Source: Desulfobacteraceae bacterium
GTDB taxonomy: Bacteria; Desulfobacterota; Desulfobacteria; Desulfobacterales; Desulfosalsimonadaceae
Assembly: GCA_014237465.1 (NCBI GenBank)
Contig: JABZFM010000009.1
Coordinates: 62,001-126,000 of the forward strand
DNA length: 64,000 bases
Reading direction: 5' to 3'
Of the stretch, positions 1,701 to 33,067 are shown in pieces (within the stretch, counting starts at the first letter, position 1; every line of letters begins with the position of its first letter). A program made the position numbers and the translations under genes. The notes beneath the pieces are model-generated. The model searched no databases, had not been told where the DNA came from, and saw only the letters and a list, made by a program, of their open reading frames with translations.

Positions 1701-2033
1701 TTAAAACAGCATCTTTTCAGGCGGTCGTCTTTCCGGGATATATTGCTTTTCAATTTTTCCTTCATTCCAGTCCGCTGAAACATACAAACTGCAATAACAA
1801 CTCCCGAATTCTTCGACATCCGGGGCTCTGTATTCACACGGACAAAAAATATCCTTATCATTGTCCCGGTCACCGGATGCCAGCCGGCAGGGACATGCCA
1901 TGTAACCGTACCGCTCCTTGTTGGTCAGCAGCGCGCCTAGAAGGTCAAGCACAAGTTCTTTGTCCGTATTAAAAAAATACCCTTTGGGTTCCTGTACTTT
2001 TTTTAACTGTTCATATAACTGCTCAACATTCAT
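1701..2033 (-). CDS. ftrB: Ferredoxin:thioredoxin reductase catalytic (beta) subunit
   Basis: The 110-aa protein carries the three cysteine pairs of the FTR catalytic chain: C47-P-C49, C64-P-C66 and C79-Y-C81. In the family these bind a 4Fe-4S cluster next to a redox-active disulfide that passes ferredoxin electrons to a thioredoxin-like partner. The third pair is CYC rather than the usual CHC of plant and cyanobacterial enzymes. Its start codon overlaps the stop of the upstream glutaredoxin-like gene by one base (TAATG), so the two are translationally coupled and are probably redox partners. No variable (alpha) subunit is seen nearby, which is common in bacteria. Confidence 0.9.
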   Translation of the reverse strand: MNVEQLYEQLKKVQEPKGYFFNTDKELVLDLLGALLTNKERYGYMACPCRLASGDRDNDKDIFCPCEYRAPDVEEFGSCYCSLYVSADWNEGKIEKQYIPERRPPEKMLF

Positions 2034-3402: not shown

Positions 3403-3645
3403 ATGATCACATTAAGACTTAATCCAAAAATTGAGCAAGATATTAATAATACAGCAAAAAATCTCGGAATTACTAAGTCGGAGCTGATTCGCAAGAGTAT
3501 CCTTGAGTATCTTAGTAAACTTGATACGGCAAACGCGTGGGAGGTCGGCCAGGACCTATTTGGTAAATACTCAAGTGGTCTTAATAATCTGTCAACTGAA
3601 AGGAAAAAGATTGTAAAGAAAAAAATCAGGGTCAAAAGAAAATGA
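3403..3645 (+). CDS. Ribbon-helix-helix (CopG/MetJ-like) antitoxin
   Basis: The 80-aa protein starts at the ATG seven bases after a perfect GGAGG; an in-frame TTG further upstream would fall inside the operator and is rejected. The N-terminus MITLRLNPKIEQDINNTAK followed by GITKSELIRKSILEYL is the beta-strand-helix-helix DNA-binding fold of RHH antitoxins. The basic, lysine-rich C-terminal tail is probably the toxin-binding part. It overlaps the downstream PIN-domain gene by four bases (ATGA), as in vapBC operons. Expected role: neutralise the toxin and repress the operon at the adjacent palindrome. Confidence 0.85.
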   Translation: MITLRLNPKIEQDINNTAKNLGITKSELIRKSILEYLSKLDTANAWEVGQDLFGKYSSGLNNLSTERKKIVKKKIRVKRK

Positions 3646-4052
3646 AAAAAATTCTAATAGACTCTGGTCCCTTAATAGCCTTATTTGACTCATCAGACAA
3701 GTATCACCACGAGGCTATTAATTTTATAAAAACAAACAAATACCCTTTGGTTACGACTCTCGCATCGATTACTGAAACTCTGCATTTATTGGATTTTAAT
3801 CGAAATGCTCAGATAGATTTCCTGGAATGGGTACATAGGGGCGCAGTTGAAATTTATAATATCGAAAATAGTGATTTTAAAAGGTTAAGAGAGCTAACGG
3901 AAAAATATCGTGATTTACCAATGGATTTTGCCGATTCGTGCCTTGTGTGTCTGGCCGAGAAACTCAATCTGAACACCATTGCTACAATAGATCGTAATTT
4001 CACAATATATCGTATTCAGGGGAAAAGAAAATTCAAAATAATTCTTTCCTAA
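3642..4052 (+). CDS. PIN-domain ribonuclease toxin (VapC-like)
   Basis: The 136-aa protein has the acidic residues expected for a metal-dependent PIN nuclease: D7 in the first strand (KKILIDSGP), E45 in SITETLHLL, D98 in DFADSCLVCLAE and D117 in TIDRNF. These would coordinate Mg2+ or Mn2+ for RNA cleavage. Translation is coupled to the RHH antitoxin through an ATGA overlap. Length and order (antitoxin first) are typical of type II vapBC modules. Target RNA is unknown. Confidence 0.85.
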   Translation: MKKILIDSGPLIALFDSSDKYHHEAINFIKTNKYPLVTTLASITETLHLLDFNRNAQIDFLEWVHRGAVEIYNIENSDFKRLRELTEKYRDLPMDFADSCLVCLAEKLNLNTIATIDRNFTIYRIQGKRKFKIILS

Positions 4053-4267: not shown

Positions 4268-7200
4268 ATGGAAATTGAAAAATTTCTAAAATGGGAGCGT
4301 TTGGAACTAAGAAATAAAGCGGTTTATATTGACCCGGAGGCACCCAACTGGGTTGTCCCCAATCAAATCGGGGATAAATTATTGAAACAAATTCGTCAAA
4401 GCCGTTCTGTTGAAAAAGCAACCAATGCTTACCTGTTTTCTTTTAACGGCAATAAAAATATGGGCCTGATCCGGGCCGAACAATTTATTTCCCTGTTTCC
4501 GGATTCAAAGGAAGACAGTTATCCGGGCAGGGGCCGACTTCTGAAACTGAATCAGCTCAAGGAGTGCTGGCTTCATATTACGGACCGATGTAATTTAAGC
4601 TGCCGCCACTGTCTGTTTTCCTGTTCCGGCAAGACGCTGACCACCCTTTCCATAGATACGATCCGCCGATGCGTTGACGAAGCCTATCGACTCGGGACCC
4701 GTTTATTTTACTTAACCGGTGGTGAGCCGTTTACGCACCCTCAAATTGATGAAATCTGCCGGCTGATCTTAACCGGCTATGATGACACCGACCTGGTGAT
4801 ATTGACCAATGGGTTACTGCTTTCCCGTCATGTGGAAAAACTGAAACAACTCCCCCTGGGACGCCTGCACCTCCAGATCAGTATCGACGGCACCCGGGAA
4901 TCCCATGACCAATACCGCGGTAACGGAACCTACGACAAACTGACAGAGAACATTGCCTCGATATCGGCTTTAAACATCCATAAAACACTGGCCATGGCCG
5001 TGCATTCGGAAAATGTCATGCAGATGAGCAATATCGTCGATATAGCGGCCGGCTACAATATTTCGGAAGTCCATTATCTCTGGCTGTTTGTTTTTGGAAA
5101 CGCCACTTCAAAAATGTTTGTACCGCCAGATCAATTATATCACCACCTGGTCGAAACGAAAAAAAAGGCTGCACAAAAAGGAATTGTCATTGATAATATC
5201 CGCAACATGGAATCTCAAATATATTCAAGTTCCGGCACCAAGTACGATCTTGGCAACGCCGGGTGGGAATCATTGGCCATCGGGCCTGACGGGTCGATTT
5301 ATCCCACCCCGGCCTTAATCGGAAATAAAAAAGCATTGAGCGGGCACATTGATGAATCCATTGAAACCGTCTGGCGACACAGCCCGGCATTATCCCAACT
5401 TCGATCCATATCCATTATAGATGATGACGCATATATGAAAAACCCGTTGCGCTACCTTGTGGGCGGCGGAGATATTGACCACAGCTTTTATGCCGGTAAT
5501 ACATTTACCGGTCATGACCCCTATATTGATTTATATAATAAAATGGCGCTGTGGCTGATCACCCATGCCGCATTGGATAAAAATAAAACCGGTTTTCCGA
5601 AAATTTTAATGAAAATGGGGGACCGTTTGCTCCAGTGTGATCATAACAGCACGGGGGTTGCGCTGACCCATTCCAACTGCGTGTTAAACGTTTCCTCAAC
5701 ACGTCAGGTGGTGGGGGACTTTTACAGTGAGGCGGCAATCGACCCGAATACGGATATTGCCAACCCGGTCTGCTACCCGAAATCGGAAATCAGCCACATC
5801 CCGCAATCTGCCCGAATCCGATCATACGGCTGCGGCAGCCCGGTACTGGACGCAGACCTGCAAAAAAATGAGGTGGTTGTGGATCTGGGTTCCGGTGCCG
5901 GCATGGAATGCTTTATTGCCGCACGCCAGGTCGGCAAAAACGGCCATGTATACGGTATAGACATGCTGGACCATATGCTTATCCGGGCAAACCAGTCCCT
6001 TGAATCGGTGGCCGAAAAAATCGGTTATAAAAACATTGAATTTCGAAAAGGCTTTCTTGAATCCATTCCAGTTGATGACAATACTGCTGATGTCGTCATA
6101 TCCAACTGTGTGATCAATCTGTCGGAAGACAAACGAAAAACATTTTCAGAAATTTTACGGATATTAAAACCCGGGGGACGTCTGGTCATATCGGATGTGG
6201 TGACGGATTCGCCACCCCCGCCGGAAATTTCAAACGATGAGCAACTTCGGGGAGAATGCATTTCTGGCGCCATGCTTCAGCCCTATTTAACCAGTATGCT
6301 GGAAAATTGCGGATTCAACAATATTCAATTTTTAAAACGTTTTTTTTACCGGGAGGTGAAAAACCATCCATTTTTTTCCCTGACATACACTGCCTGCAAA
6401 CCCAAAAATGACATAGAAGTCCCTATTATCTACCCGGGTCCGTTTGCCGCTGTTATCACCGATGACGGGAAACTGGTGATTCGTGGGCATAATACAATGC
6501 TGGATCAGGGAACTGCCCGACAATGTAATGATCAAATTTTCATACTGGACGCTGCCGGCAATGCGTCCAATATTAATGCAGAAAATACCTGTGCCTGTTT
6601 TCAGGCACCTGTGGAGGAAGTTAGAGCAACCGCTCTTTTGGTAAACATTTTAGATTCCGGAAGCATCGGAGCCATTCACCCGGTACCGGACCGGTTTGCA
6701 TCCGGATGTATGGTATGCGGCACCCCATTGACTTATCTTGAAAATGACCGGCAAAAAAAATGCGCATTTTGCGGAATCGTCAAAGCCGCCAATGCAGTGT
6801 GTGAAAATAACCATTTTGTCTGTGATGATTGCCATAGCAGCAGTGCAACAGACATTGTCAGACACATCTGTGTCAACACGGATGAAACAGACATGATCGA
6901 CCTTTTCAATATGATTCGATGCCATCCGTCAATCCCCTTGCATGGTCCGGAATACCATTTTATTGTTCCCGGCGTCATTGTTGCAACATATCGCAACCTG
7001 GGCGGTCAGGTCTCTGATAACGACATTCAAACGGCCATTGATCGGGGAAAAACCATTCCCGGAGGCGTCTGTGCGTTCTGGGGCGGCTGCGGGGCCGCTT
7101 TAGGGACCGGAGCCGCATTTGCCGTTCTGTTAAAAGGGAATCCGATCAAAGCGTCAGAACGAAAGATGGTACAGCAAATTACCGGGACAATTATCAACAA

Positions 7201-7381
7201 GATTAATAAACTGGAAGCAGCCCGCTGCTGCCAGCGGGAAACATGGACCGCTTTGAAAACAGCCGCTGAACTGTCAATGCAGTATTTAGAAATCCCCCTG
7301 CGCGCTGACGGCGCCACTCACTGCACCCAACAATCAAAAAACAAGGAATGCATGGGGAAAGGATGCCCTTATATTAAATGA
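4268..7381 (+). CDS. Radical SAM - ArsM-like methyltransferase - DUF5714 fusion protein
   Basis: This 1037-aa protein has three parts. Residues about 100-340 form a radical SAM domain with C108-x3-C112-x2-C115 and GGEP at 151-154. The SPASM-like extension has lost its usual cysteines (YPTPALIG where YPCP would be expected). Residues about 520-690 form a class I SAM methyltransferase of the arsenite methyltransferase type: GCGSP, then VVDLGSGAG, then SNCVINL (near 612) and GECISGAM (near 664), whose cysteines match arsenic-binding positions of ArsM. Residues about 814-1037 resemble DUF5714, with CMVC (C814, C817), CAFC, HFVCDDC, a C-GCAxxG-like GGVCAFWGGCGAA, and a Cys-rich end. Strong GGGAGG start site; ATGA overlap with the next gene. 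Arsenic methylation followed by radical adenosylation is inferred, not shown. Confidence 0.8.
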   Translation: MEIEKFLKWERLELRNKAVYIDPEAPNWVVPNQIGDKLLKQIRQSRSVEKATNAYLFSFNGNKNMGLIRAEQFISLFPDSKEDSYPGRGRLLKLNQLKECWLHITDRCNLSCRHCLFSCSGKTLTTLSIDTIRRCVDEAYRLGTRLFYLTGGEPFTHPQIDEICRLILTGYDDTDLVILTNGLLLSRHVEKLKQLPLGRLHLQISIDGTRESHDQYRGNGTYDKLTENIASISALNIHKTLAMAVHSENVMQMSNIVDIAAGYNISEVHYLWLFVFGNATSKMFVPPDQLYHHLVETKKKAAQKGIVIDNIRNMESQIYSSSGTKYDLGNAGWESLAIGPDGSIYPTPALIGNKKALSGHIDESIETVWRHSPALSQLRSISIIDDDAYMKNPLRYLVGGGDIDHSFYAGNTFTGHDPYIDLYNKMALWLITHAALDKNKTGFPKILMKMGDRLLQCDHNSTGVALTHSNCVLNVSSTRQVVGDFYSEAAIDPNTDIANPVCYPKSEISHIPQSARIRSYGCGSPVLDADLQKNEVVVDLGSGAGMECFIAARQVGKNGHVYGIDMLDHMLIRANQSLESVAEKIGYKNIEFRKGFLESIPVDDNTADVVISNCVINLSEDKRKTFSEILRILKPGGRLVISDVVTDSPPPPEISNDEQLRGECISGAMLQPYLTSMLENCGFNNIQFLKRFFYREVKNHPFFSLTYTACKPKNDIEVPIIYPGPFAAVITDDGKLVIRGHNTMLDQGTARQCNDQIFILDAAGNASNINAENTCACFQAPVEEVRATALLVNILDSGSIGAIHPVPDRFASGCMVCGTPLTYLENDRQKKCAFCGIVKAANAVCENNHFVCDDCHSSSATDIVRHICVNTDETDMIDLFNMIRCHPSIPLHGPEYHFIVPGVIVATYRNLGGQVSDNDIQTAIDRGKTIPGGVCAFWGGCGAALGTGAAFAVLLKGNPIKASERKMVQQITGTIINKINKLEAARCCQRETWTALKTAAELSMQYLEIPLRADGATHCTQQSKNKECMGKGCPYIK

Positions 7382-8055
7382 GAAACCATGCGTGTATAAT
7401 AATATTTGCCAAAGCCCCAATCAAAGGGCACGTGAAAACCCGGCTGGCAAAAAATATGGAGGGGTCTGTTGTTGTCAATCTCTACCGGCAATTTGTTCTA
7501 GACCTCCTTGACAAAATAAATAAAACAGGCCGGCCGGTTAAAATCTTCTATGATCCGCCCGGGGCGCAGCCGTTGATGGTCGACTGGCTGGGAGACCAGC
7601 ATGATTTTTTTTTACAAACCGGGCCTGATCTTGGACACCGAATGGCAAATGCATTTTCGGATGTGTTTAAGCAGGGAATTGGACGGGCCATACTTATCGG
7701 CACGGATTTTCCGGACCTGCCCGACAAAATTCTAACGGATGCGCTGTTAAGCCTGGAAAAGCATGATGCGGTCATCGGCCCGGCAGTTGATGGCGGATAC
7801 TATCTGATCGGGTTTTGCGCAGATTCCTTTTTACCATCAGTTTTTAAAGATATGCCATGGGGAACGCCTGACGTTTATCAAAAAACAATGAGCGTTTTTC
7901 AATCATCCGGAAAAAAAGTGTTCCGGCTTCCGGAATGGCGGGATATTGATGATTATAACGATTTAATAAATTTCATTGAATCATTAAAAAAACATCCGTC
8001 TGAAGCAAAAAACACTTATTTGTTTTTAGAACATATTGGCATGATAAAAAAATAG
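7378..8055 (+). CDS. TIGR04282-family transferase (rSAM/selenodomain-associated transferase 1, DUF2064)
   Basis: The 225-aa protein has the CofC-like nucleotidyl/glycosyl-transferase start IIIFAKAPIKGHVKTRLAK, the GTDFPDLP motif and AVDGGYYLIG. These mark the family named rSAM/selenodomain-associated transferase 1, now annotated as an arsenosugar biosynthesis glycosyltransferase. Its start overlaps the stop of the radical SAM fusion gene (ATGA), so co-expression is certain in practice. A terminator-like hairpin follows at 8074-8099. The donor sugar and acceptor are unknown; a role in glycosylating a radical SAM product is inferred from family and context. Confidence 0.85.
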   Translation: MRNHACIIIFAKAPIKGHVKTRLAKNMEGSVVVNLYRQFVLDLLDKINKTGRPVKIFYDPPGAQPLMVDWLGDQHDFFLQTGPDLGHRMANAFSDVFKQGIGRAILIGTDFPDLPDKILTDALLSLEKHDAVIGPAVDGGYYLIGFCADSFLPSVFKDMPWGTPDVYQKTMSVFQSSGKKVFRLPEWRDIDDYNDLINFIESLKKHPSEAKNTYLFLEHIGMIKK

Positions 8056-8073
8056 CCGAAAACTGAAAGTAGC

Positions 8074-8099
8074 CGGAATATTATGGTATTCCGCCTTTT
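8074..8099 (+). terminator. Hairpin plus T-run inside the operon
   Basis: CGGAATA (8074-8080), a six-base loop and TATTCCG (8087-8093) form a perfect 7-bp stem followed by CC and a run of six T. It may terminate part of the transcripts between the first transferase and the DUF3047 gene, so the two distal genes could be expressed at a lower level. Confidence 0.55.
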
Positions 8100-8126
8100 T
8101 TCAAAAACCTCAAACACAGAAAATCC

Positions 8127-8897
8127 ATGAGAATCAACATTCATCACGGTAAAGCCATATTTTTAAAATCCCGGCTCATGTTATGGTCTGTTCTTTTTCT
8201 GATTATACTGCCCATTCAAGCAGCTAAGGGCAAGGACGCTATCCGCGTGGGCGATTTTTCCAGTTCAGTCCCTGGTAGTCTGCTGCCTGAGAACTGGGAA
8301 GCCCTGACATTTAAAAAAATAACCACTCATACGCGCTATATGGTTGTTGAAGATACGCACACGCCTGTCGTCAAAGCGGTCAGTGATCGTTCAGCCTCCG
8401 GGTTAATTCGAAAAATCAGGATTGACCCGGAGCAATACCCGGTCATTAAGTGGCGTTGGAAAGTCACAAACATATACCAAAACGGGGATGTCACGCAAAA
8501 AAGCGGGGATGACTATCCGGCACGCATCTATATCACGTTTGAATACAATCCTGAAAAAGCCGGTTTTTTTGAACGTGCCAAGTTCTCAGCCGCAAAATTG
8601 CTGTATGGCGAATATCCGCCGTCTGCGGCCATAAATTATATATGGGAAAGCAAAGCGCCTGTCGGGACAGTTGTACCAAACCCGTATACAGACAATGTTC
8701 AGATGATTGTCACACAAAGCGGCAACGAGAAAATTAATACCTGGGTTGAAGAAAAAAGAAATATTTTCAATGATTATATCCGTGCATTTGGAAAAAAACC
8801 ACCCATGATATCCGGTATTGCCATCATGACCGATTCGGACAATACCGGTGAAAAAGCGATCAGCTATTTTGGCGATATTGTCATGGAGCCTGAATGA
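8127..8897 (+). CDS. DUF3047 domain exported protein
   Basis: The 256-aa protein starts with a basic N-terminus and a hydrophobic stretch (LMLWSVLFLIILPIQAAKG) that fits a signal peptide, placing the mature protein in the periplasm. The remainder matches DUF3047: IRVGDFSS, LPENWEALTFKK, a KWRWKV strand, GDDYPARIYITF and a C-terminal ISGIAIMTDSDNTGEKA segment. Family function is unknown; members often sit beside radical SAM-associated transferases. It overlaps the following glycosyltransferase by four bases (ATGA). Confidence 0.8.
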   Translation: MRINIHHGKAIFLKSRLMLWSVLFLIILPIQAAKGKDAIRVGDFSSSVPGSLLPENWEALTFKKITTHTRYMVVEDTHTPVVKAVSDRSASGLIRKIRIDPEQYPVIKWRWKVTNIYQNGDVTQKSGDDYPARIYITFEYNPEKAGFFERAKFSAAKLLYGEYPPSAAINYIWESKAPVGTVVPNPYTDNVQMIVTQSGNEKINTWVEEKRNIFNDYIRAFGKKPPMISGIAIMTDSDNTGEKAISYFGDIVMEPE

Positions 8898-9592
8898 AAA
8901 AAATGCGTGCAAAAGATATATCCATTATAATCCCGGTGATTGACGAATCAAGCATCATCAATCAATCACTAGAGGCGCTGAAAAAGACAGCCCTATCGAA
9001 TGCCTGTGAAATTATCGTTGTGGATGGGGATTCATCCGGGAGCACCATACATGCAATCACGGAAAAAAATATCAAAAAAATTAAAGGTCCCCGCGGCCGG
9101 GGCGCACAGATGAATTCCGGCGCACGGATAGCAGGCGGCCGCATTCTTCTGTTTCTGCATGCCGATACCCTCCTTCCCGTTGATGCGATGGATCATGTGA
9201 TCTTTGCCTGCAACAGAAATAAAATTGTCGGCGGGGCGTTTGACCTGGAGATCGATTCAGACAGATTCATATATCGATTGATTGACAAAATCGCTTCCAT
9301 CCGATCCCGTCTTACACGTATACCTTACGGCGACCAGGCCATTTTCATGATTAAAAAAACATTCATCGATATCGGCGGATTCAAAAAAATCCCCATTATG
9401 GAAGATATCGACCTGATGCGCCGGATAAAACATGCCGGACATAAAATCCATTTTATCCCTGAACCGGTGAAGACATCTGCCCGCCGATGGGAAAACGAAG
9501 GAATCGTCTTTTGCACCATCCGAAATATTCTTCTGTCAACAATGTTCTACCTGGGAGTTCCCCCGAAAAGCTTAAAAAAATGGTATAAATAA
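8894..9592 (+). CDS. TIGR04283-family GT2 glycosyltransferase (rSAM/selenodomain-associated transferase 2)
   Basis: The 232-aa protein is a compact GT-A fold glycosyltransferase. It starts with ISIIIPVIDESSIIN, then IIVVDGDSSG (DxD-like acidic region), GRGAQMNSGA, a LLFLHADT metal-binding motif and a C-terminal RIPYGDQAIFM then PIMEDIDLMRRIK. This pattern identifies rSAM/selenodomain-associated transferase 2, now linked to arsenosugar biosynthesis. It ends the operon, coupled to DUF3047 by ATGA overlap and followed by a terminator-like hairpin. Its usual partner, transferase 1, lies two genes upstream. Confidence 0.85.
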   Translation: MKKMRAKDISIIIPVIDESSIINQSLEALKKTALSNACEIIVVDGDSSGSTIHAITEKNIKKIKGPRGRGAQMNSGARIAGGRILLFLHADTLLPVDAMDHVIFACNRNKIVGGAFDLEIDSDRFIYRLIDKIASIRSRLTRIPYGDQAIFMIKKTFIDIGGFKKIPIMEDIDLMRRIKHAGHKIHFIPEPVKTSARRWENEGIVFCTIRNILLSTMFYLGVPPKSLKKWYK

Positions 9593-27838: not shown

Positions 27839-30800
27839 ATGAATTCAGTATTCCAATTTGATCTTTTCTTCCCGTACGGCTTTTTTTCGGCTCTGAGTTC
27901 TCTTGTCTGCTTTTTTCTGGCCGCCCTGACAATTCAGGCGGGAAGGATTCATCGAGAAAATCAGCTTTTTACGATTTTGTGTCTTTTTCAGGCGGTATTG
28001 AACCTGGAAGGTGCACTTCTCGCCATCTGTATCTCAAAAGATGTTGCTTTGTCCATCAGCCGGTTCATTCATTTGTTTTATGTATTCATTATTCCGGTTT
28101 TCGTTCAATTTATCCATGAAATTACGGGGATTAAGCATCGTAAAAGCCTTGTCAAATGGCTCTATATTTTCAGCCTGGCTTTGTCTCCGCTGACCCAGAC
28201 CAATTATTATTATTATAGTGTGCAAGAACGGTTTTTCGGGCTTTTTCCACAGGGTGGCCCGGCGTTTCAAATTTTCGGCGGCATCGGCTTATTCGCAACA
28301 ATTTACATTGGATACATTCTCTGGGCCACATTAAAACAATCGACTGATCCTGCCCAAAAGCTCAAGGCTCGATTGATCCTCTTTGGAATTGGCGCTAACG
28401 CAGCTTTAACCGTCGGAAACATATTGCCGGTACTTGGCATCGAGATATATCCGCCGGGCAACTTCAGTTTTATCCCCATGGGGCTCATGGCATACGGCCT
28501 GCTCCGGCATCACCTTTTTGAAACAACAAAAAGCAGAATTACCAAAGACTTCATTCCCAGAATCCTTACCGTATTTGTATGGAGTCCTTTGATCTTTTCT
28601 ATTATTTTTTGGATCACGGCCCCTTCAGGCGTATTTTATCCTTACCTCTATGATCGTATTTTCCCATACGCCCTTCCCCCTATTCTGTCGTTTCTTGCGT
28701 GCTTCATTTTCGCCACATTCTGCTTCATGCAGAGAACATTAAAATTAACAACAATTCTTTTTGGCTTCATCTGCACACTCTGGGGGTTTCTAAACTTAGA
28801 CATAACGTTGAACATGCTGGTCATGGATAAACATCTGGCGCTTCAGATCAGCCGGATAAACCATTTTTTTCTGGTCAATCAACTGGGGCTTTCAGTCCAT
28901 TTTTTCTATGCCATGATCGGCCGGAAACAGCGATGGACATTTGTATATCCCTGTTACGTCATCGGTCTGGTTCTGGTGCCGTTCACCCTGACGGACTGGT
29001 ATTTTAAAGGGACATATGAATACTTCTGGGGTTTTTTTGCGCAAAAAAATATTCTTTTTGATTTCTTCGGTTTTGTTTCCTTCATTGCCATTATATGGGG
29101 CATCATTTTACTTTACAGGACGATCCGCATTGAAACAGATATCGACCTGAAAAAAACGTATATCTATGTGCTTATCGGAGTATTCATTACCGGGATATTT
29201 AATTTATGCAACATCCCGGCAATAAACGGCATTGAACTTTACCCGTTGGGAAACTTCACATTCATTCCGATTCTCATCATGGGATACGGCATATTCCGCC
29301 ATAATATTTTGACAATCAATATTTATACCCGAAGACGAATTTTTGACAAAATCGTCAGCATCATATTAATTTTGGGATACACGGCCTTGATTGCCATCAG
29401 TTATTGGGCGTTAAGCAATGACCAGGGCATCAGCGTTCAGTTTTTAAGGCCATGGAATGTTCCATGGAATGTGATTGGTCCATCCAATATTTTCAACAAA
29501 ATATATCCCTATGGCATCCCCCCGCTGATTTCGTTCATCTGTGCCGTGTATATATCCATACTTACAATTCGCGTAGGAAAGAGGCAAACTGAAGCGCATC
29601 TTTTCAGTCTTCTCTGCCTTCTCATGGCGTTCATCAGCCTTGATATTCTTTTAAATGGCATCATCAGTGATGCAAATATCGGGATTCAGGTAAGCCGATT
29701 AGATCATCTGTTTTTAGTCTTTTCGCCGGCTCTTTGCCTTCATCTTGTTTTCCTGGTGATCGGGCGCCGAAACAAGTGGTGGATAGTGTACGGCGCATAT
29801 GCGATCGCTTTGATTATGATGGCCATGACCCAGACAGAATATTATATACAAAGCATGGTTCATTACTACTGGGGATTTTACCCAAAAGCCGGCGTATTAT
29901 TTGATATTTTTGCCCTCTTTTTTTTGATAGCCGTTATTTATGGGGCGGTTCTTTTAATCAAAGTGTATCGCCAAACAGACAATCTGTTTCAAAAGCATCG
30001 CCTTTTTTATCTGGCCTGCGGATTTGCCGCCATCGGCGCGCTTTATGTCGGGGATGCCTTTATATTAATGGGATATGAAATCTATCCGCCCGGCAACTTC
30101 ATATTTATTCCGCTTTTATTATGGGCATATGCGTTTTTTAAACAGTATATAGATGATATGCTGCAAATTACACGAATGGTTTTCTTCTATATCGGCTTGC
30201 TGTTTGCGGCATTGATCATTGCAGTTATTTTTAAAAAGAGTTGTCCCACTGACTGGCCCACTGAAATATATTTTCTGGGTATTATTTTATCAATACTGAT
30301 ACTACGGGTTATCTATTTTGTATGGAATAATATATTGGCGCTCTTTTTCGGCGAACAAAGTTTAAAACTGGAACAAACACTTGAATATCTAATCAATAAT
30401 CTGTCTAAAGCGCGAACATCTTTTTCAATCTTTGAAATATCAAAACAGACTCTATTCAAAGAACTGTCAAGCAGCCGTTGCGCCATGCTGATTCCCACCG
30501 GTCTGTCAGATTTAGATCAGATTGATGAACAAAAAGCCGGAGTTGCATTTTCCGGCTGGGATTCCTGGATACCGAAAATGCGCCTGTTCCCGGAAAGAAA
30601 CCAAATTCCAGCGCAGGATGCATTCATTGATTTGGCAGCCGCCCATCCCGTCCTGCCGATGTTTAGCAACCACCGAAGTCTGTCTGCCCGGGAACAAATT
30701 GAAGAATGGATGATGGAACACGATATTTTCCTGGATTCTAAAGATCCATTATTCCGGGCGGAGTATATTCTACCCGTTTATTATGAAGGCAATTTAAGCT

Positions 30801-33067
30801 GTCTCCTTTTTTTGGGGAATAAAATTGATGGTGCCGATTATTCACGTGATGAGAAGGAATTTTTCCATCGCTTTGGCTTGTCACTGGGGCCATATCTTGA
30901 AAATGCCAGACTGCTTCAGGGCATTGAAAAGAAAGTAGAAGAACGTACAGTTGAGCTGCAAAGCGCGCTGGCCGAAACCGAAACCAAAAAAGAAGAAATT
31001 ACTAAATTAAATCAAGTCGTTCAAGCGATTAATGCCTCGCTCGATCTGGATGTCATCATGTCCACCATTAAAACCGCTCTGAAAATGATATTTGAATTCA
31101 ACCAGATCGGCATTTTCCTGGTGGATCATCAAACAAATGCGCTTTATTTGACCTATTCCTCAGGAAAAAACATTACGGAAGAAATAATTCAGGCGAAGAA
31201 AAATTTAAACTTCCCGTTGGAAAAAGGCTTAAGCTTAAATAGTGAGACCGTTTTGAAAAATAAGCCGATATATCTGCCGAACATTACACCGGAAATGATG
31301 AATAACATGACACCCATTGATCAACAGGTAATGGTCATAAATCCTATGAAGGCAATGCTGTTGTGTCCGTTGGAGGTACAGAAGACGCTCATCGGCACGA
31401 TTGTCTTTTCCCATACGGACAAGACATTTAACCTGACGGAATCCGACATTAACAAAATTCAGCGCTATGTCTCCCAGGTCGCAACCGCTGTCAACAACGC
31501 CCGGCTCTATGACGATCTGAATATCACGCGCAAGGAGGCCGAATCCGCCAACAGGGCCAAAAGCGAATTTCTGGCCAATATGAGCCATGAAATTCGAACT
31601 CCCCTAAACGTTGTTGTGGGATCGGCCGAGTTGCTTAAAGGAATGGAGTTGACCGACGAACAACAAGGGATTGTTAATATGTTTCAGACAAATAGCAAAA
31701 TACTGTTAAACATCATTAACGACATTCTCGATATATCCAGGATTGAGTCCGGCAATATCAAGCTGGAGCAAATCGAATTTAACCTTAAGACACTGGTTGG
31801 AAAGGTATGCGAGTTGTTTGAAAGTCACGCGCAGGAAAAAGAACTCGAACTGAGTCACAATATTGATCCTGATCTGCCCGAAATGGTAATGGGAGATCCG
31901 GGCCGGCTTCAGCAGGTGCTGATGAACCTGGTCGACAATGCCCTCAAGTTTACACCCCGAGGACATGTGACTGTCGGATGGAGATACGCGCTGGATAATC
32001 CATCCGTGCTTGTTTTTTCAGTGGCTGATACCGGTATCGGAATAGCTGAAGACAAGCAGGAAAGTGTATTTGAGAATTTTTCCCAGGAAGATACTTCCAC
32101 GACCCGTAAATTTGGCGGAACCGGTCTTGGGTTGACCATATCGAAAAAACTTGTCGAACTCATGGGCGGCCGGATATGGGTGAAGAGCAAACCTGGACAT
32201 GGAAGCACGTTTTATTTTACTGTCCCGTTCGGTGTGGGCTCCCACCGTAAAGCCAAGATTGAAACAGTCCTCGAAAAGACTGAATTTCCGGCTCAAAAAG
32301 ACACCGCTATTCCAAAATTTTTCTCCCCCAGACGAATTCTACTAGTCGAGGATTATGAGCACAATCGAATGATTGTTTTGCAATTCCTGAAAGAGACGCC
32401 ATTTATCATTGATATCGCTGAAAACGGTTTTGAAGCGATAGAAAAATTCAAGCCGGGCATATATGATCTTATATTAATGGACCTGCAGATGCCGGTGATG
32501 GACGGGTATGATGCAACCCGTGAGATTAGAAAGATTGAAAAAACACTTGGTCTTGACCGGACCCCGGTGATTGCTGTTTCTGCATATGCATTAAATAACG
32601 AGCAGGAGAAAAGCTTTGATGCCGGGTGTGACGCTCATTTGAATAAACCTGTAAAAAAGATTGAGTTGTTTGAGGTGATCGCAAGATACCTTCCCTCAGC
32701 AAAAGTGGATACTGCATTATCGGATTCAATAATTATTGATGACGTGCGGTATAAAGGCAAATCGTCTGAAAGCCATGCAGTGCTTGTTGATCCGATGTTT
32801 AAAAAAATAATCCCGCAATATTTGGAAGATTTAAAAAAAGATGTATATTCTATGACTGCTGCTTTTAAGAAGGATGATTACGAGTTAATAAGACTAAAAG
32901 CCCATAATATAAAAGGCTCCGGTGGCGGATTCGGGTTTGATGAGATTAGCCGTATCGGAAAGCTGATTGAGGATGCGGCAAAATCAAAAGACAACCGGCA
33001 AGCGAAAAAACATATAAAAGCGCTTTCAAAGTATATGGATTGTTTGCAGGTGGCGTATCGGAAATAG
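27839..33067 (+). CDS. Giant hybrid histidine kinase with triplicated 7TM-type sensor, GAF, REC and HPt domains
   Basis: The 1742-aa protein begins with three copies of a membrane module of about 220 aa (residues about 10-228, 278-495, 555-770). Each has an F/Y-PYG/A start, an SR-x2-H-x-F motif, a GxF-x4-G-x2-F-(D/Q)-x-F block and an (I/L)YPxGNFxFIP block, resembling the N-terminal 7TM region of histidine kinases. Then come two GAF-like regions (about 840-1030 and 1060-1225), a coiled linker, SEFLANMSHEIRTPLN with the phospho-His, HATPase (DTGIGIA, GGTGLGLTIS), a receiver domain (LMDLQMPVMDGYD) and a C-terminal HPt domain (KAHNIKGSGGGFG). All elements of a His-Asp-His phosphorelay are present. 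No cognate DNA-binding regulator adjoins; the next gene is a REC-GGDEF protein. Confidence 0.88.
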   Translation: MNSVFQFDLFFPYGFFSALSSLVCFFLAALTIQAGRIHRENQLFTILCLFQAVLNLEGALLAICISKDVALSISRFIHLFYVFIIPVFVQFIHEITGIKHRKSLVKWLYIFSLALSPLTQTNYYYYSVQERFFGLFPQGGPAFQIFGGIGLFATIYIGYILWATLKQSTDPAQKLKARLILFGIGANAALTVGNILPVLGIEIYPPGNFSFIPMGLMAYGLLRHHLFETTKSRITKDFIPRILTVFVWSPLIFSIIFWITAPSGVFYPYLYDRIFPYALPPILSFLACFIFATFCFMQRTLKLTTILFGFICTLWGFLNLDITLNMLVMDKHLALQISRINHFFLVNQLGLSVHFFYAMIGRKQRWTFVYPCYVIGLVLVPFTLTDWYFKGTYEYFWGFFAQKNILFDFFGFVSFIAIIWGIILLYRTIRIETDIDLKKTYIYVLIGVFITGIFNLCNIPAINGIELYPLGNFTFIPILIMGYGIFRHNILTINIYTRRRIFDKIVSIILILGYTALIAISYWALSNDQGISVQFLRPWNVPWNVIGPSNIFNKIYPYGIPPLISFICAVYISILTIRVGKRQTEAHLFSLLCLLMAFISLDILLNGIISDANIGIQVSRLDHLFLVFSPALCLHLVFLVIGRRNKWWIVYGAYAIALIMMAMTQTEYYIQSMVHYYWGFYPKAGVLFDIFALFFLIAVIYGAVLLIKVYRQTDNLFQKHRLFYLACGFAAIGALYVGDAFILMGYEIYPPGNFIFIPLLLWAYAFFKQYIDDMLQITRMVFFYIGLLFAALIIAVIFKKSCPTDWPTEIYFLGIILSILILRVIYFVWNNILALFFGEQSLKLEQTLEYLINNLSKARTSFSIFEISKQTLFKELSSSRCAMLIPTGLSDLDQIDEQKAGVAFSGWDSWIPKMRLFPERNQIPAQDAFIDLAAAHPVLPMFSNHRSLSAREQIEEWMMEHDIFLDSKDPLFRAEYILPVYYEGNLSCLLFLGNKIDGADYSRDEKEFFHRFGLSLGPYLENARLLQGIEKKVEERTVELQSALAETETKKEEITKLNQVVQAINASLDLDVIMSTIKTALKMIFEFNQIGIFLVDHQTNALYLTYSSGKNITEEIIQAKKNLNFPLEKGLSLNSETVLKNKPIYLPNITPEMMNNMTPIDQQVMVINPMKAMLLCPLEVQKTLIGTIVFSHTDKTFNLTESDINKIQRYVSQVATAVNNARLYDDLNITRKEAESANRAKSEFLANMSHEIRTPLNVVVGSAELLKGMELTDEQQGIVNMFQTNSKILLNIINDILDISRIESGNIKLEQIEFNLKTLVGKVCELFESHAQEKELELSHNIDPDLPEMVMGDPGRLQQVLMNLVDNALKFTPRGHVTVGWRYALDNPSVLVFSVADTGIGIAEDKQESVFENFSQEDTSTTRKFGGTGLGLTISKKLVELMGGRIWVKSKPGHGSTFYFTVPFGVGSHRKAKIETVLEKTEFPAQKDTAIPKFFSPRRILLVEDYEHNRMIVLQFLKETPFIIDIAENGFEAIEKFKPGIYDLILMDLQMPVMDGYDATREIRKIEKTLGLDRTPVIAVSAYALNNEQEKSFDAGCDAHLNKPVKKIELFEVIARYLPSAKVDTALSDSIIIDDVRYKGKSSESHAVLVDPMFKKIIPQYLEDLKKDVYSMTAAFKKDDYELIRLKAHNIKGSGGGFGFDEISRIGKLIEDAAKSKDNRQAKKHIKALSKYMDCLQVAYRK

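Follow-up and report, generated by a model that had tools for sequence, protein, structure and literature searches.

In the 64,000-nucleotide stretch of Desulfobacteraceae DNA analyzed here (the window), a gene encoding a 1037-aa fusion protein is followed on the same strand by a TIGR04282 gene, a DUF3047 gene, and a TIGR04283 gene, in that order, with gaps of −4, 71, and −4 nt. The features of the locus are listed below; fractions refer to full-length homologues of the fusion.

4268..7381, plus strand: rSAM-ArsM-DUF5714 fusion gene, stop included, 1037 aa (ORF, Pfam/NCBIfam profiles, and alignment)
4268..4537, plus strand: putative PqqD-like N-terminus, residues 1 to 90, by homology to a sister fusion, L093 (PqqD match, E 3.8e-6)
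4577..5038, plus strand: radical SAM core, residues 104 to 257, with C108-x3-C112-x2-C115 and GGEP at 151 to 154 (Pfam Radical_SAM, E 9e-21)
5258..5521, plus strand: SPASM-like region without conserved cysteines, residues ~331 to 418 (alignment with L093)
5636..5680, plus strand: linker motif C457...H468-x-N470-C471, residues 457 to 471, all four residues in 36/36
5693..6415, plus strand: ArsM-like methyltransferase, residues 476 to 716, with C522, C548 (35/36), C614, and C664
6707..6835, plus strand: zinc-ribbon-like stretch (named by eye), residues 814 to 856, with C814/C817/C832/C835/C845/C852/C855 plus H849 and H856
6857..7372, plus strand: DUF5714, residues 864 to 1035, with C935, C941, C987-C988, C1019, C1028, and C1033 (Pfam, E 1e-58)
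7378..8055, plus strand: TIGR04282 family (DUF2064) glycosyltransferase-like gene, overlapping the fusion gene by 4 nt
8127..8897, plus strand: DUF3047 gene (profile match, E 4e-85)
8894..9592, plus strand: TIGR04283 family glycosyltransferase 2 gene, overlapping the DUF3047 gene by 4 nt

In profile searches, the TIGR04282 and TIGR04283 gene products scored 189.9 and 239.5 bits, above the curated cut-offs of 134 and 182, respectively. The original prediction had described a 1037-aa fusion accompanied by these three genes, and the ORFs, profile scores, and gene gaps bear this out. A promoter and terminator scan of the locus gave a signal no better than that of shuffled sequence.

A Pfam search of the full protein returned Radical_SAM at residues 104 to 257, Methyltransf_31 at 532 to 674 (E 3e-31), and, at the cysteine-rich end that had been predicted, DUF5714 at 864 to 1035 (PF18978, 197.7 bits against a gathering cut-off of 26.2). 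Residues 1 to 90 alone gave no Pfam PqqD (PF05402) match even at E 1, and model confidence there was ~50 to 66. The AlphaFold model of the fusion, built from 13 sequences (mean pLDDT 67.3, pTM 0.41), was used for domain folds and not for domain arrangement. In an alignment of 36 full-length homologues, restricted to ORFs of >950 aa, the three radical SAM cysteines and three ArsM cysteines were kept in all 36, and 18 further cysteines were nearly invariant. The fusion is a real protein family. Plasmid records contained no full-protein homologue at E 1e-40.

The methyltransferase and radical SAM domains

The methyltransferase part shares its fold and aligned conserved cysteines with ArsM/AS3MT. 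C522 (YGCGS), C614 (SNCV), and C664 (GEC) align with cysteines of solved arsenite methyltransferases and were present in 42/43 (with one gap), 43/43, and 43/43 sequences of a wider set, while the triad was missing from 5/5 non-arsenic methyltransferases. Foldseek searches gave human AS3MT and algal ArsM as best matches. The ArsM family NF008823 was the best for this part, although the score (231.9 bits) fell below the cut-off of 263; the ArsM adjoining ArsS at locus L094 likewise scored under it (238.0 bits). Unlike ArsM/AS3MT, this version is embedded in a 1037-aa protein and its first, N-terminal cysteine appears not to be conserved, with C502 found in 13/36 homologues and 16/43 of the wider set at a position where the alignment is loose. 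In a tree of 75 rows with long branches, made by a quick method and leaving out three fusion rows (L050, L051, and L091), the fusion methyltransferases grouped with ars-operon ArsM (91 SH-aLRT on the branch to the five non-arsenic methyltransferases). The fusion rows lay outside a supported clade of other ArsM rows (99 SH-aLRT) and were not recovered as a single clade. Judged by the intact triad and by grouping with ArsM and not with the non-arsenic enzymes, the ArsM identity proposed earlier holds; the part is ArsM-like by sequence, with As(III) as its predicted substrate.

The radical SAM domain matched PF04055 at 75.1 bits (cut-off, 29.5), and since G151-G152-E153-P154 and the CX3CX2C motif are invariant in 36/36 homologues, it looks active. 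The SPASM-bearing sister L093 has 12 cysteine columns; in 11 of them none of the 36 fusions has a cysteine, and in the remaining one 16/36 do, so the loss of cysteines noticed in the original prediction extends across the family. D402 and D404 (each 36/36) occupy the columns of two L093 SPASM cysteines, and D417 is also present in 36/36.

Like the fusion gene, ArsS (TIGR04167) is a radical SAM gene able to cluster with ArsM, VTT, MerA-like, DUF3047, TIGR04282, and TIGR04283 genes. The fusion differs from it in belonging to another radical SAM subfamily, in having a SPASM-like region and a putative PqqD-like N-terminus, and in lacking DUF3641, the C-terminal domain present in the L094 ArsS, for which no match was found at E 0.01. 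Against the ArsS model, whose cut-off is 300 bits, the fusion scored 42.5, less than five other radical SAM genes in its genome, and its radical SAM domain was no nearer to ArsS than to other radical SAM proteins. The ArsS-type assignment made earlier was therefore not upheld, and adenosylation would follow from a stand-in role, not from homology.

ArsM and ArsS had been described as normally separate proteins, and exceptions exist. L168:221-2257 is a natural ArsS-ArsM fusion, in which a genuine ArsS (402.9 bits) is followed by ArsM and no DUF5714 match was found; the two activities thus do become fused. L093:9459-11942 (minus strand), the single example seen of a radical SAM/SPASM-ArsM fusion, aligns with the window's protein from residue 1 to the ArsM end (26% and 48% identity) but keeps its SPASM cysteines and lacks DUF5714; no ArsS was found in its genome. 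Another parallel is arsinothricin biosynthesis, outlined in PMC8552651 as the action of radical SAM ArsL and ArsM on one arsenical through two SAM-dependent C-As bond formations, with ArsL proposed to transfer a 3-amino-3-carboxypropyl group. ArsL and ArsM are described there as separate genes, unlike the fusion, and the likeness drawn here is one of described chemistry. The zinc-ribbon/DUF5714 part is related to MbdU, presented in PMC13188914 as a metal-binding double selenoprotein (NF045648), at 141.1 bits, far under the cut-off of 600. None of the fusion matches has an in-frame stop, so Sec is absent from them, unlike from the MbdU selenoprotein.

Partner genes and the distribution of ArsS

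For a comparison free of hand selection, we took 30 fusion and 30 ArsS loci as returned by score, with 1.5-kb flanks. TIGR04282/TIGR04283 genes lay within this distance at 7/30 fusion and 7/30 ArsS loci, VTT/MerA-like genes at 9/30 and 10/30, and either set at 14/30 and 12/30. For 42 fusion loci viewed out to 6 kb, the corresponding counts were 16, 15, and 24; the remaining 18 had no partner gene in that range, and only 5 of these had a flanking sequence shorter than 6 kb. The same counts for 27 ArsS loci were 10, 10, and 15, which are biased upward because these loci were hand-picked, some for a TIGR04283 gene on the same contig. Complete or near-complete genomes (L224, L227, and L233) carry a tight five-gene operon of VTT-MerA, fusion, TIGR04282, DUF3047, and TIGR04283. 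At L243, from the genus of the window, a separate ArsM, DUF3047, ArsS, and VTT-MerA-like gene lie in one stretch on one strand with other genes interspersed. ArsM, ArsS, MerA-like, and VTT genes occur together at L094, one of five fetched loci where the nearest type of stand-alone ArsM is encoded. Among 102 neighboring ORFs (of 151 collected unlabelled ones, 49 having been omitted by hand), the 25 commonest families included no ars-resistance family and no further recurrent partner; the top ones include peptidylprolyl isomerases (6 members) and rhodaneses (3).

The 44 matching genomes comprised 33 with the fusion, counting complete, split, and contig-end-cut genes (G209, G261, and others), 8 with ArsM only, 1 with the L093-type fusion (G016), and 2 with DUF5714 only. 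ArsS was called at E 1e-40 (120 genomes, 119 above cut-off; at 1e-60, 93 and 91). In counts made without a species tree, ArsS was present in 1/33 phylum genomes with the fusion versus 119/362 without it (p 1e-4), and by genus in 2/26 fusion genera versus 91/219 others (p 5e-4). A class sample gave 3/37 fusion genomes versus 90/294 others (p 0.003, again without a species tree), but by genus showed no depletion of ArsS (8/18 versus 51/116; p 1). The three mixed genera for which every sampled member was listed (g1, g2, and g247, with 10, 8, and 5 genomes) contained 1 genome with both genes where ~2 were expected by chance, a difference that does not discriminate. Four genomes (G352, G455, G472, and G559) carry both. 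ArsS is also present in every one of the 8 genomes whose ArsM is stand-alone and of the nearest type. The functional tie to ArsS in the original prediction is thus sustained by the same partners at the same rate, the rarity of both genes in one genome, and the L243 arrangement.

TIGR04283 was called at E 1e-40 (186 genomes, 167 above the family cut-off) and was found in 31/33 fusion genomes, 113/120 ArsS genomes, and 186/395 overall. As a marker of arsenosugar genomes TIGR04283 alone was rejected, because 43 of the 186 have neither ArsS nor the fusion; one of the 43, G016, has the L093-type fusion.

A candidate organoarsenical synthase

Many sulfate-reducer-type bacteria carry the fusion. Its sharing of partner genes with ArsS, with which it seldom co-occurs, suggests that it is probably an unrecognized route to carbon-arsenic compounds. 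That it is a one-polypeptide organoarsenical synthase standing in for ArsM plus ArsS we regard as an even chance. In this scheme, As(III) would be held by C522, C614, and C664 of the ArsM domain and methylated there. Conserved cysteines, namely C457/C471 and those of the zinc-ribbon-like stretch and DUF5714, would then pass the trivalent methylated arsenical across to the radical SAM domain. This domain would split SAM and add part of it to the arsenical, the simplest candidate being 5′-deoxyadenosyl as in ArsS, so that a C-As bond of a second kind is formed. The TIGR04282, TIGR04283, and DUF3047 proteins, and elsewhere the VTT membrane protein and MerA-like disulfide reductase, may process, reduce, or move the product. 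The sequence of reactions, the identity of the added group, and what the glycosyltransferases do are presumed. Support for the organoarsenical idea comes from genomics; arsenic is the presumed substrate, and adenosylation is the more conjectural of the two. Counting against this reading are the distance of the radical SAM domain from ArsS, the lack of ArsS depletion by genus in the class sample, the four genomes with both genes, the 18 fusion loci without partners, the absence of ars-resistance families from the 25 commonest neighboring families and of ACR3 from the window's own genome, the 43 genomes with TIGR04283 and neither enzyme, the poorly kept first ArsM cysteine, and the NF008823 score under the cut-off. 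Of the pathway originally proposed, the ArsM identity and the link to ArsS stand; by sequence, the radical SAM part does not belong to ArsS, and glycosylation of an arsenical is the weakest step, since many genomes have the TIGR04282/TIGR04283 pair but neither ArsS nor the fusion.

More tentatively, the protein might be a radical SAM enzyme that evolved independently of ArsS and ArsL and adds a third way of forming a C-As bond to theirs. A PqqD/radical SAM/SPASM ancestor resembling a peptide maturase would have fused to ArsM and lost its SPASM ligands, two of them becoming the invariant D402 and D404. Arsenic would be channelled by invariant cysteines, the trivalent methylarsenical would never be released, and a group other than adenosyl may be attached.

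We found no paper describing the fusion by title or abstract in the literature searched, which covers few subscription papers. If the synthase reading is true, a large and overlooked set of sulfate-reducer-type anaerobes can be recognized by a single gene as producing complex organoarsenicals. ArsS-based surveys would miss its carriers, ArsS being in only one of the 33 phylum fusion genomes, and anaerobic sediments would join the sources of arsenosugar-like compounds. A single polypeptide would also allow methylation and radical C-As bond formation to be studied together.

It is conceivable, at well under even chances, that the fusion makes an organoarsenical while TIGR04282, TIGR04283, and DUF3047 form a unit of their own, for glycosylation of the cell envelope or of lipids, that travels along, with no arsenosugar produced. 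TIGR04282 is also present in 38 of the 43 genomes with TIGR04283 and neither ArsS nor the fusion. At 16 loci from 14 of these genomes, no ArsS, radical SAM, or ArsM-like gene, the kinds searched for, lay beside the glycosyltransferases, and 6/16 had VTT, MerA-like, or DUF3047 genes; in several fusion genomes (L176-L187 and L189) the glycosyltransferase genes sit away from the fusion. Against such a unit stand the enrichment of TIGR04283 in fusion and ArsS genomes and the tight five-gene operon. As far as the enzyme itself is concerned, this alternative agrees with the one-polypeptide synthase reading.

Less likely, the fusion handles another thiol-reactive element (antimony, tellurium, selenium, or mercury), to which the radical domain adds a group. 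A piecewise search of the window's own genome found no ACR3 arsenite exporter, a MerA-like reductase often adjoins the fusion, DUF5714 is related to MbdU, and at L209 a VTT/MerA-like/TIGR04282/TIGR04283 cluster without ArsS adjoins a metal P-type ATPase-like gene (by eye). Arsenic is favored over these elements by the methyltransferase, which has the full triad of ars-operon ArsM and groups with them in the tree, and by the partners and rare co-occurrence, which concern ArsS, a characterized arsenical enzyme.

A peptide maturase, in which PqqD-like recognition and the radical SAM/SPASM-like domain modify a peptide that is then methylated, seems improbable. Foldseek matched the radical part to SkfB, anSMEcpe, SuiB, and the sactipeptide enzyme 5wgg, but also to the small-molecule enzyme BlsE, and the sister fusion has PqqD and SPASM; yet the SPASM cysteines are gone, the methyltransferase is ArsM-like, and the genes of the tight operons overlap or are almost contiguous, leaving no space inside for a precursor peptide. 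Least credible is that methylation and metal binding alone matter and that the radical SAM domain survives as a relic, either decayed or regulatory, as loss of the auxiliary-cluster cysteines from the SPASM-like region might suggest, since CX3CX2C, GGEP, and many core residues are, unlike those of relics, invariant in 36/36 divergent sequences.

Domain structure, distribution and conservation of the fusion

The gene for the radical SAM-ArsM-DUF5714 fusion (P0001; ArsM, arsenite methyltransferase) lies in the window as follows:

4268-7381, plus strand, rSAM-ArsM-DUF5714 fusion gene, 1037 aa

Pfam placed Radical_SAM at residues 104 to 257, a methyltransferase domain at 532 to 674 and DUF5714 at 864 to 1035, and the coordinates, domains and cysteines of the original prediction all proved correct by ORF, Pfam and NCBIfam analysis. 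Downstream on the same strand follow, in order, genes for TIGR04282 (189.9 bits; cut-off, 134), DUF3047 and TIGR04283 (239.5 bits; cut-off, 182); the successive gaps are -4, 71, and -4 nt. Upstream, at 3403 to 4052, lies a two-gene module, VapBC-like by eye, that encodes an 80-aa ribbon-helix-helix-like protein (weak Pfam matches) and a 136-aa PIN-domain protein; it occupies the position held by a VTT-MerA-like gene in several relatives. The VTT-MerA-like fusion gene of the window's genome is on a different contig from the operon (G000:C34:76842-78977; L253) and is 72% identical to the copy adjoining a relative's fusion.

Searching 395 genomes of the phylum with the fusion gave matches at an E value of ≤1e-60 in 44, which we sorted into 33 with the fusion, 8 with ArsM only, 1 with another fusion (G016) and 2 with DUF5714 only; the 33 take in complete copies, copies split into adjacent genes (as at L089 and L090) and copies cut by contig ends. 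In the class sample, the fusion was present in 37 of 331 genomes at an E value of ≤1e-100, several of them complete genomes. Eleven of 13 named loci match beyond DUF5714, all metagenome assembled with desulfobacterial or deltaproteobacterial titles; the other two, a Fusobacteria and a Spirochaetes record, match DUF5714 alone. No in-frame stop occurred among the fusion matches listed for the phylum search and class sample, and a literature search by title or abstract found no published description of the fusion.

We aligned 36 full-length fusions, the others being 36 to 86% identical to the window's sequence. The radical SAM core (C108, C112, C115 and G151-G152-E153-P154) and the ArsM cysteines C522, C614, and C664 were present in all 36, and 18 further cysteines were kept in 35 or 36: C457, C471 (with H468 and N470), C548, C777, C814, C817, C832, C835, C845, C852, C855, C935, C941, C987, C988, C1019, C1028, and C1033. 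One fusion gene (L223:6182-7531; G502) carries about 1.35 kb inserted in its ArsM domain, with a 373-aa transposase-like ORF (by eye), and another is directly preceded by a second DUF5714 protein (L082:11971-12660, minus strand; 230 aa, MbdU-like, 313.5 bits).

The two catalytic parts compared with ArsM and ArsS

The methyltransferase part is nearest to the arsenite methyltransferase family NF008823, at 231.9 bits (below the cut-off of 263); none of the best 25 of 106 NCBIfam families reached its cut-off with the fusion protein. Of 43 fusion rows, 42 (with one gap), 43, and 43 carry the first, second and third cysteine of the ArsM triad, respectively. The six ars-operon ArsM rows also have the triad, apart from a single gap at the third position, and it is missing from all five non-arsenic methyltransferases. 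Three ArsS-adjacent ArsM rows, of which L153 and L157 have short envelopes, carry the first cysteine in 3/3, the second in 1/3, and the third in 1/3. A 75-row tree, built by a quick method and with very long non-arsenic branches, placed the fusion domains with ArsM proteins, apart from non-arsenic methyltransferases (SH-aLRT, 91). The remaining ArsM rows, including L093 and the ArsMs of ArsS genomes, formed a clade of 30 (SH-aLRT, 99). The fusion rows fell outside it, scattered over several groups that the tree did not unite into a single clade. Judged from these comparisons, the METHYLTRANSFERASE part of the fusion is ArsM-like; neither the grouping with non-arsenic methyltransferases nor the loss of cysteines that would have spoken against the predicted ArsM identity was seen. 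An AlphaFold model (pLDDT, 67.3; pTM, 0.41), informative for domain folds only, gave human AS3MT and an algal ArsM as best Foldseek matches (E value of about 1e-17); those for the radical part include SkfB, anSMEcpe, SuiB, 5wgg, and BlsE.

The radical SAM part scored 42.5 bits on TIGR04167, the family of the arsenosugar radical SAM protein ArsS (cut-off, 300), a score exceeded by five other radical SAM genes in the window's genome, and Pfam found no match to the ArsS domain DUF3641. BLASTP against a true ArsS gave an E value of 9e-5, over the radical SAM core. By these sequence comparisons, this part is not ArsS. Seventy of the 99 listed class-sample ArsS matches contain one in-frame TGA (counted by eye) and are selenoprotein-like.

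A sister radical SAM-ArsM fusion (L093:9459-11942, minus strand; G016) has an N-terminal PqqD, keeps its SPASM cysteines and lacks DUF5714; ArsS was not found in its genome. The two proteins can be aligned from residue 1 of P0001 through the end of ArsM. In all 36 fusions, 11 of the 12 SPASM-region cysteine columns of L093 are without cysteine (the twelfth has one in 16/36), and the invariant D402 and D404 fall in two of these columns. From the alignment, the PqqD N terminus and the cysteine columns, the ancestor of the fusion was probably a PqqD/radical SAM/SPASM protein.

Genomic association with ArsS and shared partner genes

In the phylum, ArsS was present in 1 of 33 fusion genomes versus 119 of 362 others (P = 1e-4), and by genus in 2 of 26 versus 91 of 219 (P = 5e-4). 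Among 186 TIGR04283-bearing genomes, 1 had both, 30 the fusion only, 112 ArsS only, and 43 neither (P = 2e-13). In the class sample, which overlaps the phylum sample in some genomes, ArsS was present in 3 of 37 fusion genomes versus 90 of 294 others (P = 0.003). These P values ignore kinship (no species tree).

By genus, the class sample showed no depletion (ArsS in 8 of 18 fusion genera versus 51 of 116 others; P = 1), and this null counts against the fusion standing in for ArsS. The fusion and ArsS are found in the same genera, seldom in the same genome. The eight genera with both kinds (g1, g2, g5, g114, g247, g276, g287, and g304) hold 18 fusion genomes and 16 ArsS genomes by hand tally, 2 with both, a number not comparable to chance because members without a match are completely listed for g1, g2, and g247 only; in these three, one genome with both was seen and about two are expected. 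Four genomes bear both: G559, an assembly of 80 contigs, and G352, G455, and G472, each in 350 to 380 contigs. The G455 fusion is visible for its first 321 residues only, at a contig end.

Within 1.5-kb flanks of 30 fusions and 30 ArsS genes, taken as returned by the searches, TIGR04282 or TIGR04283 adjoined 7 and 7, VTT or MerA-like genes 9 and 10, and genes of either kind 14 and 12, respectively. Within 6 kb of 42 fusion loci, drawn from the phylum search and the named loci, the counts were 16, 15, and 24; 27 ArsS loci chosen by hand, and so biased upward, gave 10, 10, and 15. Eighteen of the 42 fusion loci had no partner gene inside 6 kb, only 5 of them with <6 kb of sequence on a side. Three complete or near-complete genomes (L224, L227, and L233) carry a tight operon in the order VTT-MerA fusion, rSAM-ArsM-DUF5714, TIGR04282, DUF3047, TIGR04283.

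ArsS was present in all eight genomes having only the nearest stand-alone ArsM. At L094 this ArsM adjoins a true ArsS (439.4 bits), a MerA-like gene and a VTT gene; ArsS was not found at the four other loci of this ArsM that were analysed. Within the genus of the window, no fusion match at an E value of 1e-100 was found in G660 (86% complete), and L243 carries on one strand, with other genes interspersed, an ArsM gene disrupted by a stretch of N and a change of frame, a DUF3047 gene spread over two frames, ArsS (over the TIGR04167 cut-off, with one in-frame TGA) and a VTT-MerA-like gene. A natural ArsS-ArsM fusion occurs at L168:221-2257 (G369; TIGR04167 at 32 to 329, 402.9 bits, ArsM from 334), and ArsS matches in open frames of 676 to 697 aa in G090, G128, and G308 may be further ones.

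TIGR04282 and TIGR04283 are not specific to ArsS or the fusion: 38 of the 43 TIGR04283 genomes with neither enzyme also have TIGR04282, and VTT, MerA-like or DUF3047 genes occurred at 6 of 16 such loci. Often the two are one protein of about 435 to 490 aa (L076:11664-13136, L081:2751-4154, and others), whether or not the genome has ArsS or the fusion. At L209:6975-12992 (G036), VTT, MerA-like, TIGR04282 and TIGR04283 genes cluster without either enzyme, beside an 812-aa metal P-type ATPase-like protein with two HMA motifs (by eye). ACR3 was not found in the window's own genome, and the 25 commonest families in a set of 102 ORFs neighbouring fusions included no ars-resistance family. Like the genus-level null, the lack of specificity of TIGR04282 and TIGR04283, these two negative results and the 18 fusion loci devoid of partner genes count against the proposed role.

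Proposed reaction sequence

The original prediction combined ArsM and ArsS chemistries in one protein, followed by glycosylation. The observation behind it is confirmed, and this interpretation is partly supported. The fusion joins ArsM and a radical SAM enzyme in a single polypeptide, which would take over from separate ArsM and ArsS proteins. In the most likely sequence, C522, C614, and C664 would bind As(III), a role we assume from those of the ArsM cysteines; the bound arsenic would undergo SAM-dependent methylation and be handed over via the cysteine-rich linker and C-terminal part; a SAM-derived group would be transferred by radical chemistry to the trivalent methylarsenic; and partner enzymes would then act on the product. 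Of this scheme, only the anatomy and genomic association are demonstrated here, and the rest draws on established knowledge. Adenosyl is our default guess for the transferred group, given that ArsS is the enzyme the fusion apparently replaces. The radical SAM core is of a subfamily other than that of ArsS and may transfer a different group. A review (PMC12159101) covers radical adenosylation by ArsS, and PMC8552651 proposes carboxypropyl transfer by the arsinothricin enzyme ArsL.

Elsewhere in the window, 27839 to 33067 encodes a hybrid histidine kinase of 1742 aa that combines a 7TM region at its N terminus with receiver and Hpt domains, and 1701 to 2033 (minus strand) a 110-aa homologue of the ferredoxin-thioredoxin reductase catalytic beta chain.
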